A stretch of 64,000 nucleotides of DNA from Acetivibrio alkalicellulosi (GTDB lineage Bacteria; Bacillota; Clostridia; Acetivibrionales; Acetivibrionaceae): positions 2,790,843 to 2,854,842 of the forward strand of contig VLTH01000002.1 of NCBI GenBank assembly GCA_008125075.1, written 5' to 3'. Made by a program: the position numbers and the translations under genes. Shown here piece by piece: positions 12,293-64,000 of the stretch (the stretch's first letter is position 1; every line of letters starts with the position of its first letter). The notes beneath the pieces are model-generated. The model ran no database searches. It worked only from the letters and a program-made list of their open reading frames with translations, and was not told the DNA's origin.

Positions 12293-12530
12293 ATTTTCTG
12301 AGCCCTTTTATACTCTCATTTTATATGTCGAGATATTAAGTACAATCCTTAATAATATTCCTTCAAAAGTTTCCCGTTTGCATTTTTTTCACTTTTAAGT
12401 TGTTTTTTCTAATTTCAACTTTAGCATCAGACATTACTTTATTCTAATAAATAATATTTATAGATATAAGTAATTCTGTGTTAAAATATAAATAGACATT
12501 CATGAGCACAAAAGCTCACCAACATAAGAT
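12293..12530 (-). repeat. Second copy of the shared upstream block
   Basis: It shares with 2461-2584 the TATACTCTC-TTTTATAT-TCGA-ATAT block near the gene and the ATATAAGTAATTCT / TTAAAATATAAATA / ACATTCATGAGC segments farther out. The copies differ by an insertion of roughly 100 bp in the middle. The TGTCGAG in this copy is close to a Spo0A box (TGTCGAA), but the other copy has TTTCGAT, so a Spo0A role is weakly supported. Confidence 0.5.
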
Positions 12531-14437: not shown

Positions 14438-14505
14438 ATGTTTAACTTTAGCTAACCGAGCTTTAGACTGCGTAACTTAAGTTTCTGGTGTATTTTTTTT
14501 ACATT
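14438..14505. repeat. Dispersed intergenic repeat (ATGTTTA-CTTTAG type)
   Basis: The stretch around ATGTTTAACTTTAGCTAA aligns with 32290-32325 (ATGTTTAGCTTTAGTTAA). Its far part, read on the minus strand as CCAGAAACTTAAGTTACGCAG, matches the interior of the 204-bp element at 45314-45334. It therefore looks like a chimera of repeat fragments. Confidence 0.55.
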
Positions 14506-34807: not shown

Positions 34808-34912
34808 ATATTACCTCCTGGTACCATTTTTCTTGGCAATTTGCTTTCTTACCTCCAAACACTTTCAATATATAATTATATTATCTATGAAAAATAGCCA
34901 TTTAGCAATTCA

Positions 34913-35024
34913 ATATTTTATTTATTCTTTCAAAATCTTATGACGAAAGCAGAAACAGTAATTTCAATATATCCCTAAGAGGAGTATTTATATTATGAAG
35001 ATTAAACCAAACACAGTGAACTAG
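34913..35024 (+). pseudogene. Remnant 5' end of an AraC-type gene
   Basis: About 105 bp align closely with the leader and first codons of the intact AraC gene at 36170-36275: the same TATTTTATTTATTCTTTCAAA start, the same GAGGAGTATTTATATTATGAAG with RBS and start, then MKIKPNTVN followed by TAG, where the intact gene reads MKVKPNTINVLDE. It is a partial duplicate that lost the rest of the gene. Both copies point the same way, 1.26 kb apart. Confidence 0.85.
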
Positions 35025-35897: not shown

Positions 35898-36251
35898 TTT
35901 AAAACTCCCACTAATCCCTATTATTATTTCAAAAGGTGACGATGGTATTAAAGATTATTATGTATTTATATTATACTACTTCTATGGAATTGCTTTTTAT
36001 ATTCAATCCCCTTTCTCATATAATTTTATATTAAGTTCAAACTTTTGGCAATGGATATGGAATCATTTGTATCATTTCATTATTTCATAAGTAATTCCAG
36101 ATGAAAATATATATGCTATTTAAGCTAGGAAAAACATGCAAAAAGCATTGCGAAGCAAGTTTTAAATTAAGTATTTTATTTATTCTTTCAAAGTCTCATG
36201 ATAAAATAAAAACAATAGTTTCAATACATCGCTAAGAGGAGTATTTATATT
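35898..36251. other. Divergent gap before the intact AraC gene
   Basis: This 354-bp gap holds the promoters of the minus-strand membrane protein and the plus-strand AraC gene, a fragment of the 204-bp element (36121-36163) and the leader duplicated at 34913. An open frame at 35770-36090 is an overlap with the membrane protein gene and has no coding character. Confidence 0.65.
36121..36163 (-). repeat. Fragment of the 204-bp palindromic element
   Basis: On the minus strand it reads AACTTGCTTCGCAATGC, TTTTTGCATGTTTTTC, CTAGCTTA, which matches the right-hand interior and end of the element at 45437-45477 (AACTTGCTTCACAATGT, CATGTTTTTC, CACTTAG). The terminal GGTGCAT motif is missing. Confidence 0.6.
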
Positions 36252-37142
36252 ATGAAGGTTAAACCAAACACAATAAATGTCTTAGATGAAAATTTATCTC
36301 CAAGACTATTAAAATCCTTTTTGTTTTCTCAAGGAAAAACCTTACCACAAGGTTACCGTCTAAAAGAAAGACATGTATTTGATTATGAATTTGAATTAAT
36401 CACATACAGTAAAGGCACAATGATAATTAATGATACTCAATATGTGATTAATGAAGGAGATATTATTTTTAGAAAACCTGGTCAATTTACTCAAGGAATT
36501 ATGCCCTATAGTTGTTATTTTGTATGCATTGATATGTTGGGAAATACACATAAAGACCCTTTAACCTATGATTTTTATATTGACCAAGAATATCAGAATT
36601 ATTGCATAAATCCTATTCTTGAGTCTCTTCCCCCTGTTTTACATCCATCACGGAATGAAAAATATCACTTTTTATTTGATTCTATCCTAAAAGAATTTAT
36701 TAATCCAACTGAGGGTTCTTATATAATACTTAAGTCCTACATTTTAAACTTGATTTATCAACTTTTTCATGATGCTAACGATCCCTTAATAAAAAATTCA
36801 GTTCCGTTATCTTCTCACTATAATATAATTAAAAGGGTTATTAATTATATTGATAAAAACATTGATCATAAAATATCATTAAGTGATATTTCAAAGCTTT
36901 CTGATCTAAGTCCTAATCACTTTCATAGAATATTTACTCAAACAATGGGTTTAACACCAAATGTATTTATTACTAAAATGAGAATAGAAAAAGCAAAAGA
37001 TCTTCTAATTAGAACTAATCATACAATATCAGAAATATCTATTATGTGTGGTTTTGAAAATATACCATATTTTAGCTACCTTTTTAAAAGACATATCCAT
37101 CTATCTCCAGGAGAATTTCGAAAAAGACACAGCTATTTTTAG
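36252..37142 (+). CDS. AraC-family transcriptional regulator with cupin-type sensor domain
   Basis: 296 residues. The N-terminal 110 residues form an AraC-type cupin with the characteristic HVFDYEFELITYSKGTMII and INEGDIIFRKPGQ strands, which binds sugars or related small molecules in characterised relatives. The C-terminal 100 residues contain the two HTH motifs (SLSDISKLSDLSPNHFHRIF and ISEISIMCGFENIPYFSYLF) and the PGEFRKRH end. GAGGAG is about 10 nt before the ATG. Its leader is duplicated upstream. No obvious sugar operon is adjacent, so its target is unknown; the divergent membrane protein gene is a candidate. Confidence 0.92.
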   Translation: MKVKPNTINVLDENLSPRLLKSFLFSQGKTLPQGYRLKERHVFDYEFELITYSKGTMIINDTQYVINEGDIIFRKPGQFTQGIMPYSCYFVCIDMLGNTHKDPLTYDFYIDQEYQNYCINPILESLPPVLHPSRNEKYHFLFDSILKEFINPTEGSYIILKSYILNLIYQLFHDANDPLIKNSVPLSSHYNIIKRVINYIDKNIDHKISLSDISKLSDLSPNHFHRIFTQTMGLTPNVFITKMRIEKAKDLLIRTNHTISEISIMCGFENIPYFSYLFKRHIHLSPGEFRKRHSYF

Positions 37143-44631: not shown

Positions 44632-44668
44632 GTGTGCATGTAACAAATGTGAAGAAAAATATGCACCC
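44632..44668. repeat. Short palindromic form of the 204-bp element
   Basis: GTGTGCATGTAACAAATGTG, then AAGAAAAATATGCACCC. The left end of the 204-bp element is joined directly to its right terminal motif, leaving about 37 bp. It is preceded by two tandem GCGCCCTT octamers (44615-44630). Confidence 0.7.
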
Positions 44669-44753: not shown

Positions 44754-45200
44754 ATGTTAAATATTATTTTAGGAATCTTTTTTGGCTTTTTACCAACAAT
44801 GGTAGCTTACGGAAGAGAAAAAGAAAGTAGCGGTATAATATTTGCATTAAATTTATTATTAGGATTATCAATATTTATTATTGGTCCTTTTGTACTTTTA
44901 GGATGGATATTCCTTTTAATTTGGGCTTTTAGTGTAGATTCATCAAAGGCTAATTCATGGGATACCAGTCAGTATAAAAGCACTTTAAGATATGATCATC
45001 CTAAAAAAGAGTGTCCAAGATGCAAGAGTTCCATTGATTCTGACTGTACATCCTGCCCAAAATGCGGAGAAAGATTTAGCAATGCATCTAATAGTAAACT
45101 TAATTTAGATAAAAATCAAGAAAAATGGAGATGCAAAAAGTGCGGTTCTCATAATCCCGTGGGCAAGGTATTCTGTGGTGATTGTAATAGCTATAAGTGA
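44754..45200 (+). CDS. Small membrane protein with two zinc ribbons
   Basis: 148 residues. Two membrane helices (about 2-20 and 27-58, for instance FALNLLLGLSIFIIGPFVLLGWIF in parts) are followed by a polar linker and two zinc ribbons: CPRCKSSIDSDCTSCPKCGE and CKKCGSHNPVGKVFCGDC. The double-helix part resembles superinfection-immunity-like small membrane domains. GGGG lies upstream of the ATG. It follows the zinc-ribbon cyclase gene by about 210 bp on the same strand but with a repeat between. Function unknown. Confidence 0.82.
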   Translation: MLNIILGIFFGFLPTMVAYGREKESSGIIFALNLLLGLSIFIIGPFVLLGWIFLLIWAFSVDSSKANSWDTSQYKSTLRYDHPKKECPRCKSSIDSDCTSCPKCGERFSNASNSKLNLDKNQEKWRCKKCGSHNPVGKVFCGDCNSYK

Positions 45201-45289
45201 GTTATTTTCTGATACAGTCCCATTTCATCTTATAGAAAGTGAAGTGTTAGATTTAAGATGCACCTTTACTAGGATTTTTTGCACATAGT

Positions 45290-45493
45290 GTGGGTGCATG
45301 TAATAAATGTGAAGAAAAACATTCCAGAAACTTAAGTTACGCAGCCTAGTGCCTGTAAATGCTCCTCGGGGTCGAGCAAAACTCGCTATCGCTCAAACAA
45401 TGCTCTCCCTTTCCTCGTCGCATTAACAGGCTCTAAAACTTGCTTCACAATGTTTCTTCCATGTTTTTCTTCACTTAGAAAATATGCACCCAC
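45290..45493. mobile_element. 204-bp MITE-like palindromic element, copy A
   Basis: The ends are a two-block inverted repeat: GTGGGTGCAT, 9 nt, GTGAAGAAAAACAT on the left, and its exact counterpart ATGTTTTTCTTCAC, 9 nt, ATGCACCCAC on the right. The interior has further imperfect pairing (GCCTGTAAATGC with GCATTAACAGGC). ATAGT is repeated directly outside both ends (45285-45289 and 45494-45498), a probable 5-bp target duplication. It contains no gene. Its right end provides the stop codon of the KaiC-like/PEP-binding gene. Copy B lies at 56407-56610 in the same orientation and has the same length. Confidence 0.88.
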
Positions 45494-48056
45494 ATAGTGT
45501 TTTGCCCGTGATAATGTCGGAAGCTACAAACATATTGCTATTTGAAACATTGTATACCTTTATGACATCCTGTATATCCTGACTGTTTGGTAATATATCT
45601 TGTAGAATATTTTTTTCATTTTTAAAAAAGTTATCTTTATAGTTTAAGGTGCTCTCATCTTTATATATAGCGGCATAATATATATTTGCTTCAACAAGAT
45701 CCTGGAAAAAGTGACTTCCAAAAGATAATTCTGGCATATACCCAGCCTCCTTATATGATACTTCACAAATAACTTTTATGTTGCTTATTTCAGCAAATCT
45801 AACTGGCACTCCAAGCTCTGGAGATGTTGTCCCAATTCTTCCAGGCGCAAGAAGCATTATTGATTTACTGCTATCTTTGTAATACTGGTTTATTTCACCT
45901 ATTGCCCTCGCAATATTATGCTTTTTGTTGTAGGGATATTCATAATAACCTTTTGGATCAATATGTATAATTGCATCTAGTGGCTCGTTATAAGATCCTC
46001 CCATTGTGCCACCTGAAAGCTCAAAAAATATGTTTTCTTCTGATACTTGTGGCATTCCTACTTTGCCGTCAGTTCCTATAATCTCTAATGGTCTGCATTG
46101 CAATATATTTATCATAAACTCTCCGTGCTTAGAAAAATTCACTGTAAATTCAATATCTACAGGATATTTATATTGAATTTGCAATTCATTTAGTATTTTT
46201 CTTAATATATCTATAAGTTCTTTGTTATCAATTAACCCTTTACAACTAGTAAATAGTATTTCTCTTTTTTGTCCCCTGTCACGATAAATTGCTTCTGTTT
46301 CATAGTCGTGTTCTAAAGTAAGCTTTTTATACCACTCAGGCAGTTTTGGTATAAGTTCATATAAATCCATTGTCATAAAATCATTTTTACCCAAATCAAG
46401 TACATCCATTTTATGCTGAGAGTACTGATGACTTTCCGAAGACCCTCTTATAGGTGTAAGATGAGGCTTGTCTAAACTAACTATTCTTGGATAGTCTCCA
46501 TCTGTTCTATCAACTGCTCTTGTTCCAAGTCCCATTACCAACCTTATCATCCCTGCTGTAGGATCAATGTCTTTATGCCATTTATATGAGTTGTATGAAT
46601 ATCCCACTCCTGCAGCTGACGGCATAAAAACATCATCTAAAAGAGATCCTGAAACCCTTTGCACAAGTATAGCCATCTGCTCATCACTCTTGCTAAGACC
46701 TCGCTGCAATCTATACTCTAGTGCAGCCTCATCCATTGTACTTGCATAAACTTTTTTTACTGCCTTCTCAAAGGATATAAGCCTATCCTCTAGGCTTCCC
46801 ACATTAACACAGAAAAAAGATTCATATTTACCTGCAAATGCATTTCCAAAACTATCTTCTAAAAGACTACTAGACCTTACGATAATAGGACTTTGCCCAA
46901 AATACTCAAGCATCCTTCTAAATTGTTCTCTTATTGTATCTGGGAAACTCCCCTCAAGTATTTTACTCTTTAAGTCTTTAGCTGCTGTAAAATATCCCTC
47001 TTCACTTTTTTGTAATAGTCTTATCTTCCACCATCCATTTTGAACAATATAAGTATAAAAAACATCAGATCCAATATAAAAAGAGTCATGTTCCTCTATT
47101 CTTTCATGTACATCAGGCAAGTTATTTTCTATTATTTTTCTAGCTAAAAGCATTCCCCAAGCTTTCCCACCTATTTTACCCGAGCCTGTCATTCTCTCCT
47201 TAATTAAAATTAAATCATCTGCACTAAAATTTTCAATTAAGAGATTATTGAGCTTATCTTCTTTCCCGGCAAGCCTTTCACAGATATCTTTTAAATCCAC
47301 ACTATTTCCTTCACCATTATCAAGTTTCATTTTTACATATAGAAAAAATCTTTCCCAACTGTCAAGATTTTGATCATTGTGAAGCTTAGTTTTATGAGAA
47401 ACAAGAGAATAAAACTTACTGACACTTACACTATCAGTTACAGCTTCAAAGCCTTCAGGGTGATTGTTTAAAAACCTGTGAGGCAAAAACATGTTAGGAG
47501 AGTATCTTTGCCATACCTTTAAGGGATGGATATAGGTCTCATTATTCTGTGAATAAACATCAAGAAAAAGCTGGGTAGTTTCGCGTATTCTTGCTATTGT
47601 GTCAAATGAATGCCTATAGCGTATTATGCAAAAAAATGCAACTGTATCAAGCTCAAATAGATAGGGGCAAGTTACTACAAAAAAATTACCCATCATAAGA
47701 TCTGCTGACCATGCCGTTTGTAGTTCGGAAAGGCTGTCAAAAACATAAAAAGTCTCCTTACCCTCTCTTTCAATTATTTCATGAACCTGAACAGTAAAAT
47801 TTTCAAATCCTTCTTGGGGATTAAGTTCATATATTTTCAGACCATCCTGTGGCTCTAATATTGGTTTGTGATTTGCAAATCTTATGTATACAAGTCTCCG
47901 CTTATCTTTAATAGCTTGTTTTGCAAAAGACTGTGCAAATAAAAAGTATTCTTCAATGTTTGATATCTGCCATACAACATTGTCCCCAAGCCTAATATTT
48001 TCCAAGGCTTTATCAAGACCTTCCAGTCCTGACTTTATTTTTTCAAAAGCACCCAT
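45471..48056 (-). CDS. KaiC-like / PEP-synthase N-terminal (ATP-grasp) fusion protein, 3' end altered
   Basis: 861 residues. Residues 1-190 resemble a KaiC/RecA fold (GLDKALENIRLGDNVVWQ; FYVFDSLSELQ) but lack a Walker A motif, so that domain is probably not an ATPase. Residues 290-680 match the PEP synthase/PPDK N-terminal nucleotide-binding domain (KIGGKAWGMLLAR; IIVRSSSLLEDSFGNAFAGK; MINILQCRP). The phosphohistidine swivel domain and PEP-binding barrel of true PEP synthase are absent, so it cannot be one. A C-terminal region of about 180 residues is unassigned. The last seven codons, CGCIFSK, and the stop come from the 204-bp element; without it the frame would continue as CAKNPSKGAS to a stop at 45253. 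GAGG lies 7 nt before the ATG. It forms an operon with the nucleoid-associated gene (14-bp gap). Confidence 0.88.
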   Translation of the reverse strand: MGAFEKIKSGLEGLDKALENIRLGDNVVWQISNIEEYFLFAQSFAKQAIKDKRRLVYIRFANHKPILEPQDGLKIYELNPQEGFENFTVQVHEIIEREGKETFYVFDSLSELQTAWSADLMMGNFFVVTCPYLFELDTVAFFCIIRYRHSFDTIARIRETTQLFLDVYSQNNETYIHPLKVWQRYSPNMFLPHRFLNNHPEGFEAVTDSVSVSKFYSLVSHKTKLHNDQNLDSWERFFLYVKMKLDNGEGNSVDLKDICERLAGKEDKLNNLLIENFSADDLILIKERMTGSGKIGGKAWGMLLARKIIENNLPDVHERIEEHDSFYIGSDVFYTYIVQNGWWKIRLLQKSEEGYFTAAKDLKSKILEGSFPDTIREQFRRMLEYFGQSPIIVRSSSLLEDSFGNAFAGKYESFFCVNVGSLEDRLISFEKAVKKVYASTMDEAALEYRLQRGLSKSDEQMAILVQRVSGSLLDDVFMPSAAGVGYSYNSYKWHKDIDPTAGMIRLVMGLGTRAVDRTDGDYPRIVSLDKPHLTPIRGSSESHQYSQHKMDVLDLGKNDFMTMDLYELIPKLPEWYKKLTLEHDYETEAIYRDRGQKREILFTSCKGLIDNKELIDILRKILNELQIQYKYPVDIEFTVNFSKHGEFMINILQCRPLEIIGTDGKVGMPQVSEENIFFELSGGTMGGSYNEPLDAIIHIDPKGYYEYPYNKKHNIARAIGEINQYYKDSSKSIMLLAPGRIGTTSPELGVPVRFAEISNIKVICEVSYKEAGYMPELSFGSHFFQDLVEANIYYAAIYKDESTLNYKDNFFKNEKNILQDILPNSQDIQDVIKVYNVSNSNMFVASDIITGKTLCGCIFSK

Positions 48057-53047: not shown

Positions 53048-54214
53048 ATGCTAAAAAAGACAAAACAACTTGTTTATATTTTAATAATAGTATATACTTT
53101 AATTTATTTCATTAGTGTTCCTATTTTTGCCTCTGATTTTGATGCGGGCGAACTGGAATTAATTGTAGAAATTGGAACATCAGAAGGCTCTATATGGGAT
53201 CAAGTAGAAATACCTTTAACTATCTCAGGGGTTCCTGAATCAGGAATTAACTACATTGAGTTTGTTTTGAATTATGATTCTTCAGATTTAGACATCATTA
53301 CTATAATCCCAGGAGAAATACTAACAAATCCTCTAGAAACTTTTGCTATAGGTATTGATTACAATAGCATTGTAATTATGTTTATTAATGATACTGGTAT
53401 TGACAGTATAAAAGACGACGGAGTATTGTTAAAGATTGTTGCAACAATAAGAAATGAACACAAACTAGATTTAAGTGAAATATCTCTTAAATCCTTTGGC
53501 ACAATAATATTATCAGAACCGTCTTTTGTTAATCCAGTTTTTTCAATCGGCGGAGTGCATATAATAGAATCTGCACCCTCAGATGAAAATACTGTGTTTC
53601 TTCAAAAAGAAAGAGTTTTAGGCGAAGTTGGAGATATTGTTGAAATTCCAATAAACCTCACAGATGTTTCACCTAACGGAGTAAGTCACTTAGACTTTTT
53701 ATTAGATTATAATCCATCAAGTTTAAAAATAATCTCTTTAATCCCAGGTGAAATAGTTCCAGATCCCAATTTTACTTTTGCTTGGTCTTTAAATGAAAAT
53801 AATGGACATATTTCTGTTATGTTTTGTGATAACATAATATTAGAAGATGGTGAATTTGTTAAAATTACCGCAGAAATACTACATAACTCACAAGCTAAAT
53901 TAAACGAAATAACTCTCTGGTCGTATACTTCAAATCAAGTTTCTCTTTCCAACTGTTCAGCATTTATTACTGGAGGAATAATAATCGACAAAGTATTCGA
54001 TCATATTCTAGGTGATTTAAATGGAGATGGAATTATTAATTCAATTGATTATGTTTTGATGAAGAGATACATTTTAGAAATTGATACAGATATTCCTGCT
54101 GGCAATAGCTCTGCTGATTTAAATGGAGATGGTCAAATAAATTCAAGTGACTATATATTACTAAGAAGATATATTCTTAATATAATAAGCGAAATCCCAA
54201 AGATTCAGCATTAA
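53048..54214 (+). CDS. Small scaffoldin-like protein: cohesin-cohesin-dockerin
   Basis: 388 residues. After a signal peptide (YILIIVYTLIYFISVPIFA) come two cohesin-like modules (about 33-178 and 180-320). Each shows the type-I cohesin pattern: GDIVEIPINLTDVSPNGVSH, LDFLLDYNPSSLKIISLIPG, a PNF/TFA strand, then DGEFVKITAEI. The first is more diverged (GSIWDQVEIPLTISGVPESG). A C-terminal dockerin (about 322-385) has DLNGDGIINSIDYVLMKRYI and DLNGDGQINSSDYILLRRYI. It has no CBM, SLH or sortase motif, so it is neither primary nor anchoring scaffoldin; it would plug into another cohesin and carry two dockerin partners, as adaptor scaffoldins do. GGGAG lies 8 nt before the ATG. Monocistronic. Confidence 0.92.
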   Translation: MLKKTKQLVYILIIVYTLIYFISVPIFASDFDAGELELIVEIGTSEGSIWDQVEIPLTISGVPESGINYIEFVLNYDSSDLDIITIIPGEILTNPLETFAIGIDYNSIVIMFINDTGIDSIKDDGVLLKIVATIRNEHKLDLSEISLKSFGTIILSEPSFVNPVFSIGGVHIIESAPSDENTVFLQKERVLGEVGDIVEIPINLTDVSPNGVSHLDFLLDYNPSSLKIISLIPGEIVPDPNFTFAWSLNENNGHISVMFCDNIILEDGEFVKITAEILHNSQAKLNEITLWSYTSNQVSLSNCSAFITGGIIIDKVFDHILGDLNGDGIINSIDYVLMKRYILEIDTDIPAGNSSADLNGDGQINSSDYILLRRYILNIISEIPKIQH

Positions 54215-56298: not shown

Positions 56299-56713
56299 TT
56301 TTTACCTCTAAAAATACATCTAACAAATACATAAAGTATCATCAGAAATTAATTAAACCAATTATATCACATTTTTTGTCATAATTCAATGTAATTTGTC
56401 ACATAATGGGTGCATTTAATAAAAGTGCTCAAAAATACTCCAGAAACTTAAGTTTTCCAGTTTAGATACTGTAAATTCTCCTTGGAACTTTGCAAAACCC
56501 GCTTCGCGAAAAAAAAGGATGATCTCCTTTTCCTCATGGCATTAACAGGCTCTACCACATGCTTCACAATGTTCTCCCTTGTTTTTCTTCAGGTTGACTA
56601 AATACACCCATATATTATGCGTAAATATTTTAAGATTCTCTTTTATCATACTCTTTTGATCTTTTGCTGGAATTTAATTTTTTTAATTTACAGGAAATTT
56701 TTGCTCATAAATT
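56299..56713. other. Gap dominated by copy B of the 204-bp element
   Basis: This 415-bp gap contains the second 204-bp element (56407-56610). The flanks are AT-rich and show no gene. Confidence 0.75.
56407..56610. mobile_element. 204-bp MITE-like palindromic element, copy B
   Basis: Starts TGGGTGCATTTAATAAAAG and ends AAATACACCCA. It aligns with copy A along its length: TCCAGAAACTTAAGTT, CTGTAAAT-CTCCT, GGCATTAACAGGCTCTA, TGCTTCACAATGTT and GTTTTTCTTCA are shared. The ends have diverged (ATACACCCA instead of ATGCACCCA), and no clear target duplication remains, so it is probably an older insertion than copy A. Confidence 0.85.
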
Positions 56714-63898: not shown

Positions 63899-63933
63899 GG
63901 GTGTATGTAATAAATGTGAAGAAAAACATTCCA
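63899..63933. repeat. Left end of another 204-bp-type element
   Basis: GGGTGTATGTAATAAATGTG, AAGAAAAACATTCCA: nearly the same as the left 36 bp of copy A (GGGTGCATGTAATAAATGTG, AAGAAAAACATTCCA). The sequence then drifts away before the window edge, so a full element may continue beyond 64000 or only this end may remain. Confidence 0.72.
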
Positions 63934-64000
63934 AAGACATAATAGTTACTTCTTTATTTTATAAGTGTACAAGTCAGATTTATTGAAAAGAGTAAATTCT

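Follow-up and report, generated by a model that had tools for sequence, protein, structure and literature searches.

The minus-strand gene at positions 45471-48056 of the window (the whole 64,000-nucleotide stretch of Acetivibrio alkalicellulosi DNA analyzed here) raises the question of whether a mobile element has displaced its original 3′ end and, if so, what moved that element. Inspection of the sequence revealed a near-palindromic insert straddling the 3′ end of the gene, bearing out a claim of the first-pass annotation, which had been made from the sequence alone. The borders of the insert (copy A) and the adjoining features are as follows.

45253-45282, minus strand: displaced former 3′ end of the gene; together with the adjoining duplicated bases it encodes AKNPSKGAS followed by TAA
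45283-45291, no strand: target duplication ACATAGTGT, left copy, 9 bp
45292-45491, plus strand: MITE copy A, 200 bp, delimited by alignment of sibling copies and by the 9-bp duplications
45292-45299, plus strand: left terminal inverted repeat GGGTGCAT; the likeness to the end of the helper IS extends to approximately 25 nt
45484-45491, minus strand: right terminal inverted repeat, reading ATGCACCC on the plus strand
45492-45500, no strand: target duplication ACATAGTGT, right copy, 9 bp
45471-48056, minus strand: gene of 861 aa with a PPDK_N domain at residues 294-663; its final six codons and TGA lie inside copy A

The ends of copy A are GGGTGCAT...ATGCACCC, the reading frames inside it are interrupted by stops, and it encodes no transposase. 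Excision of 209 bp, comprising the element and one repeat, yields a frame ending in ...DIITGKTLCAKNPSKGAS* in which GKTLC continues into AKNPSKGAS and a TAA at 45253-45255, the same reconstruction that had been proposed earlier. The gene presently ends with GKTLC followed by GCIFSK from copy A, and its TGA (45471-45473) lies within the insert, so the element does supply the stop codon as claimed. The residues CGCIFSK had been ascribed to the element; GCIFSK indeed derives from it, but the preceding C (TGT) belongs to the target duplication, host sequence outside copy A. The element is 200 bp rather than the 204 bp first given, the earlier border having been drawn 2 bases too far out on each side. 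Likewise, the ATAGT direct repeats reported before are the inner part of the real repeat, but the duplication is the 9-bp ACATAGTGT and not ATAGT alone. Thus, the central proposal of an insertion with a readable pre-insertion state stands on the 9-bp duplication, the duplications of sibling copies and an IS with the same ends, although its borders and duplication length were wrong.

The sibling copies define a numerous family. At least 42 sites in the same genome are within three mismatches of a 30-nt piece of the core, compared with none for the reversed control; at least 50 matching pieces were counted (40 of 289 candidates scored), and a structure model gave at least 55 core matches. Both ends were present in 27 of 40 copies examined, the other 13 being without an end. 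Of the 27 two-ended copies, 19 are flanked by a 9-bp repeat having no more than one mismatch, compared with 0 of 702 mispaired flanks, while other repeat lengths from 3 to 14 fit 0-4 of the 27 at each length; eight of the 27 are without a 9-bp repeat at the predicted border. In another genome of the same genus (G002), six of nine copies are two-ended, with an 8-bp repeat fitting three of the six and a 9-bp repeat fitting one. BLAST at E≤0.001 revealed a match in at least 16 of 40 genomes, its own included, several of the matches being short and near the limit; at most 20 matches per genome were scored, making the copy numbers lower bounds. No match to the element was found in plasmid and phage collections. 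Among 30 copies from its own genome the best pairs are 99% identical, and copy A is 96% identical to its nearest sibling; the earlier suggestion of recent mobility is therefore fair for the family, but copy A itself has no sibling closer than this. The window contains a second, more diverged copy.

56408-56609, plus strand: second MITE copy, with a core match at G000:C2:2847293-2847412

The element is a MITE: it is short, encodes no transposase, has terminal inverted repeats, occurs in multiple copies with duplications and shares its ends with an IS. Locus L015 was found in 13 of 13 relatives with the joined flanks as query, and none of the 13 has a 200-bp insert there. The query gave one continuous match in eight relatives and two matches in five, with a gap at most ~80 bp over that of the query; the exact target bases of these empty sites were not alignable (three of seven relatives shown). 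For the copy A site no empty allele was seen, the best orthologue found being 66% identical. In literature searches at the level of listed titles and abstracts, neither this MITE nor its core was mentioned by name.

Smaller relatives of the element were also observed in the window. These comprise a 37-bp, near-coreless relative at 44632-44668 (GTGTGCATGTAACAAATGTGAAGAAAAATATGCACCC) that is barely more than two ends, a similar short hairpin occurring at L182; an inverted 37-nt piece at 14464-14500; and a partial relative at the end of the window (63899-63942, 91% over 44 nt). Other repeats are direct copies of 53 and 75 nt at 34896-35020 and 36154-36277 (79% and 87% alike, ~1.26 kb apart) and a 45-nt direct repeat (2568-2612 and 12479-12523, 93%) flanking a reading frame of 3200 aa. 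The product of positions 53048-54214 carries cohesin and dockerin domains and is a component of the cellulosome type.

An IS of 1641 bp in the same genome terminates in GGGTGCAT/ATGCACCC and is flanked by a 9-bp duplication, AAAAACATC. Its frame of 456 codons scored 300.7 bits against the ISKra4 model NF033572 (cut-off 205). The IS end GGGTGCATTTAATTTATGTGAAGAA differs from the left end of the MITE at 3 of 25 positions, as counted by eye, and a deleted IS copy of 1229 bp has identical ends and a perfect duplication. The match is limited to the ends, the MITE interior not being seen in the IS. Broken relatives of the IS with 90-93% identity are present in G002, and an ISKra4 IS with GGGTGCAT at both ends and a duplication with one mismatch was found in another genus (G009). 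A transposase over the ISKra4 cut-off was detected in 2 of 14 searched genomes with core copies, and G029, which has GGGTGCAT at one locus, gave no ISKra4 match at all. In G007, 18 weak matches to the ISKra4 model (~20 bits), mostly frames of 426 codons, reveal a multi-copy, distantly related transposase. UPF0236/ISLre2 was considered as the helper family and rejected: PF06782 found the transposase (38.7 bits), but NCBIfam assigns it to ISKra4 and its ISLre2 score of 95.6 bits is below the cut-off of 200. The six orphan ends at L178-L183 were likewise rejected as additional autonomous elements: at none of them do both exact ends enclose a reading frame, and one, L182, is a short hairpin with hardly any core. 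The shared ends, the family assignment, the 9-bp duplication within the 8-9 bp of the ISKra4 group and the insertion upstream of sigma-A promoters indicate that the ISKra4-family IS is the likely helper of the MITE.

According to PMC3942029, ISKra4-group elements have repeats of 8 or 9 bp and several members insert upstream of sigma-A promoters, a figure legend giving 13-17 bp to the repeat. In the present family, 16 of 27 copies lie beside a promoter with no more than three mismatches in total, the −35 box of which starts 16-18 nt from one end; by comparison, each of the remaining 14 offset bins accounts for 0-5 of the 27. None of 1000 shuffles reached 16; these preserve base composition only, and the offset was first noticed in the same copies after the published range of 13-17 bp was known. 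Counted by flank at a different threshold, the promoter occurs on the left alone in 11 of 35 and on the right in 4 of 29. The IS itself sits beside TTGAAT-18-TACAAT, with identical spacing. At copy A the corresponding sequence is weak.

45508-45536, plus strand: promoter-like GTGATA-17-CATATT, antisense in the gene, 16 nt from the right end of copy A; it has four mismatches and may be chance

Copy A fits the targeting rule only weakly, and a promoter-like site present by chance may explain why it inserted into a coding 3′ end.

The first-pass annotation had named comparison with relatives as the check on the former C-terminus. Among 88 orthologous loci, one a record of Acetivibrio mesophilus (L109), the tail beyond the position corresponding to cysteine 855 could be measured in 81 and ranges from 1 to 23 residues with a median of 5; seven loci were skipped, and some of the 88 overlap or may share a species. 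Since the tails are short and variable, orthologue C-termini cannot decide the former tail. The former nine residues and the new six are both of ordinary length among the orthologues, and therefore the swap is probably neutral and the enzyme probably left intact. The same kind of event is seen at another copy (L014), where the joined flanks end in SISNG* and the present frame in SISNGGCM*. In a simple scan of 30 copies, nine overlap or abut a frame of at least 90 codons and 21 do not.

The interior of the element is structured.

45335-45451, minus strand: hairpin core as modelled (R1; L001:1546-1662 minus, 136 bits), with covariation

The minus strand of the element is predicted to fold into one long hairpin of −80.7 kcal/mol (z −8.8). 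In an alignment of 37 cores (A1), chosen from 64 after five of 69 had been dropped earlier, 95.9% of cells are standard pairs (shuffled mean 94.0), with two-sided changes in 11 of 30 pairs (0 of 500 shuffles). At E≤0.001 a covariance model of the core matched 16 of 58 genomes of the order, counting its own. These comprise 10 of 14 genomes of the family and 6 of the 44 from outside it, with one of the latter matching only at 8.7e-4. At E≤0.01 at least 25 core matches were found in G057 and at least 15 in G049, both of other families; these counts are lower bounds, with at most 64 matches per genome considered in the E≤0.001 search and 150 in the E≤0.01 search. A wider alignment of 37 matches (A2), which was fitted to the model, has 90.7% of cells paired and two-sided changes in 24 of 30 pairs. 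Such changes occupy 170 cells, compared with a mean of 53.2 after shuffling, a comparison inflated by related copies; partners slid by 1-3 columns were 31-45% paired. These 37 matches derive from 34 chosen loci (among them 21 of the 30 distant loci) and include a reverse-strand match of a palindrome at L174 and a weaker second match at L225. The covariation points to a constraint on base pairing.

Some stronger claims for the core were rejected. Strict covariation of the apical loop fails since every one of the four possible combinations of its two arm variants was observed (22, 6, 6 and 3 of 37). Cells with G-U outnumber those with A-C by 51 to 5 in A1 and by 47 to 41 in A2, or 38 to 12 when three pairs less than 70% paired are left out; this excess is suggestive only, and strand bias was not accepted as proof of RNA since it would not discriminate between RNA and single-stranded DNA. 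Rfam gave no match at the element (window positions 45000-45800, E≤5) or at the core of 12 distant loci (E≤1), and a scan found no terminator. In G005, a TwoAYGGAY RNA (RF01731, 47.8 bits, cut-off 43) at L263:1158-1307 is separated from a core copy by ~190 nt. The core may be an RNA with a function, a hairpin that transposition requires, or a palindrome whose complementarity is maintained by replication errors.

The core recurs with different ends in other genomes. In G057, seven of nine loci shown begin exactly with GGGTGCAT or GGGCGCAT on the first-read side, one of the nine has a perfect 9-bp duplication, and no matching ends were found at the two loci inspected for them; in G029, one of four loci starts with GGGTGCAT. 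Both G024 loci have a TTGTTGTGCTAG-like end, with variants in several G049 loci, and four loci in g2 have another, GTGCAA-like end. Most copies in g3 are without GGGTGCAT, their core being 87-92% like that of copy A for many. A script found an exact 8- or 9-bp repeat beside matching ends at only two of the 30 distant loci. In g3, the core is in opposite orientation between two species at two syntenic sites (L224/L226 and L221/L232), with 96% identity in the core against 87-90% in the flanks at one site and 89% against 82% at the other. A possible cause is inversion between the hairpin's own arms, and the opposite orientations argue against a role tied to one strand. The pair L225/L237 was set aside, as it fails to delimit the unit of insertion in g3.

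Copy A is a genuine insertion, a MITE event with unusually complete evidence in its ends, its duplication, the same-ended IS and the targeting rule. The best explanation in full, considered very probable, has an ISKra4-family transposase (Mutator-type DDE) mobilizing copy A in trans as a non-autonomous MITE. This enzyme would act on GGGTGCAT...GTGAAGAA ends, make a 9-bp stagger at insertion and favor a site ~16 nt upstream of a sigma-A −35 box. For copy A it would have used the weak promoter-like sequence located within the 3′-terminal part of the PPDK_N-domain gene; the insertion swapped the last nine codons and TAA for six element codons and TGA, and placed a long hairpin downstream of the new stop. 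The mover would be the transposase of the IS or a close relative, with the protein still working and the message carrying the hairpin. It is highly improbable that the palindrome and its flanking repeats instead arose in place in a gene that always ended there. No empty allele speaks against that reading and variable orthologue tails do not exclude it, but the core sites of the genome (at least 42), the perfect 9-bp repeats, and the former reading frame and stop intact beyond the element do. Movement by a Tn3-like system with 5-bp duplications deserves as little credence: ATAGT does flank a 204-bp stretch at copy A, but no 5-bp repeat with at most one mismatch was found at the 200-bp borders of any of the 27 copies, compared with 19 of 27 at 9 bp, a result by which the 5-bp duplication was rejected, and the ends match those of the ISKra4-family IS.

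A less probable alternative to the ISKra4-type MITE as the conserved unit is the structured core, a hairpin module of RNA or single-stranded DNA with a role of its own for which ISKra4-type ends were only the vehicle in copy A. It draws on the model matches in 16 of 58 genomes, the two-sided changes in 24 of 30 pairs, the different ends in G049/G024, g2 and g3, and the likeness of the g3 core to that of copy A mostly without GGGTGCAT. Against it, the unit that moved in A. alkalicellulosi is bounded by ISKra4-type ends, the core is in opposite orientations at two syntenic g3 sites, no terminator was found, and the wide alignment was fitted to the model. A tentative extension, about as probable, would make the core a distinct, undescribed structured module, either a nucleic-acid parasite or a small RNA, that has no ends of its own, spread through an order of Clostridia via terminal repeats recognized by different transposases and persisting without them in some genera, the ISKra4-type MITE being one vehicle. 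Under the preferred explanation, ISKra4-mediated movement of a MITE, one interrupted gene end leads to a numerous family, and since a likely helper and a targeting rule are both readable from sequence the mechanism is directly testable. Insertion just upstream of promoters can alter gene regulation. A core covarying across several families with differing ends makes it testable, as a general question, whether MITE interiors are simply carried along or are conserved for a role of their own.

Among known systems, the closest are the ISKra4 IS with prokaryotic Mutator-like p-MULT 4 transposases, which as described in PMC3942029 are alike in the GGGTGCAT ends, the duplication (9 bp here, 8 or 9 in that paper) and the sigma-A placement; copy A differs in having no transposase and an interior unrelated to the IS found. 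The transposases of ISLre2/UPF0236 are of a related superfamily, with PF06782 finding the helper, which is below the ISLre2 cut-off. QMITE2 of Coxiella, according to the review PMC10969869, is likewise small and mostly intergenic, with a predicted stable stem-loop transcript and duplications of 7-9 bp; in the present family a same-ended IS and a targeting rule were identified, and the core structure is conserved across families of the order. The enterobacterial repeat units RU-1 and RU-2 inside genes, as presented in PMC2759123, are alike in that a small mobile sequence displaces the stop and gives a new C-terminus beyond the conserved domain; they belong to a different element family, and here the target duplication makes the former C-terminus readable. 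The feature of this MITE that is out of the ordinary is its structured interior, recurring with different ends.
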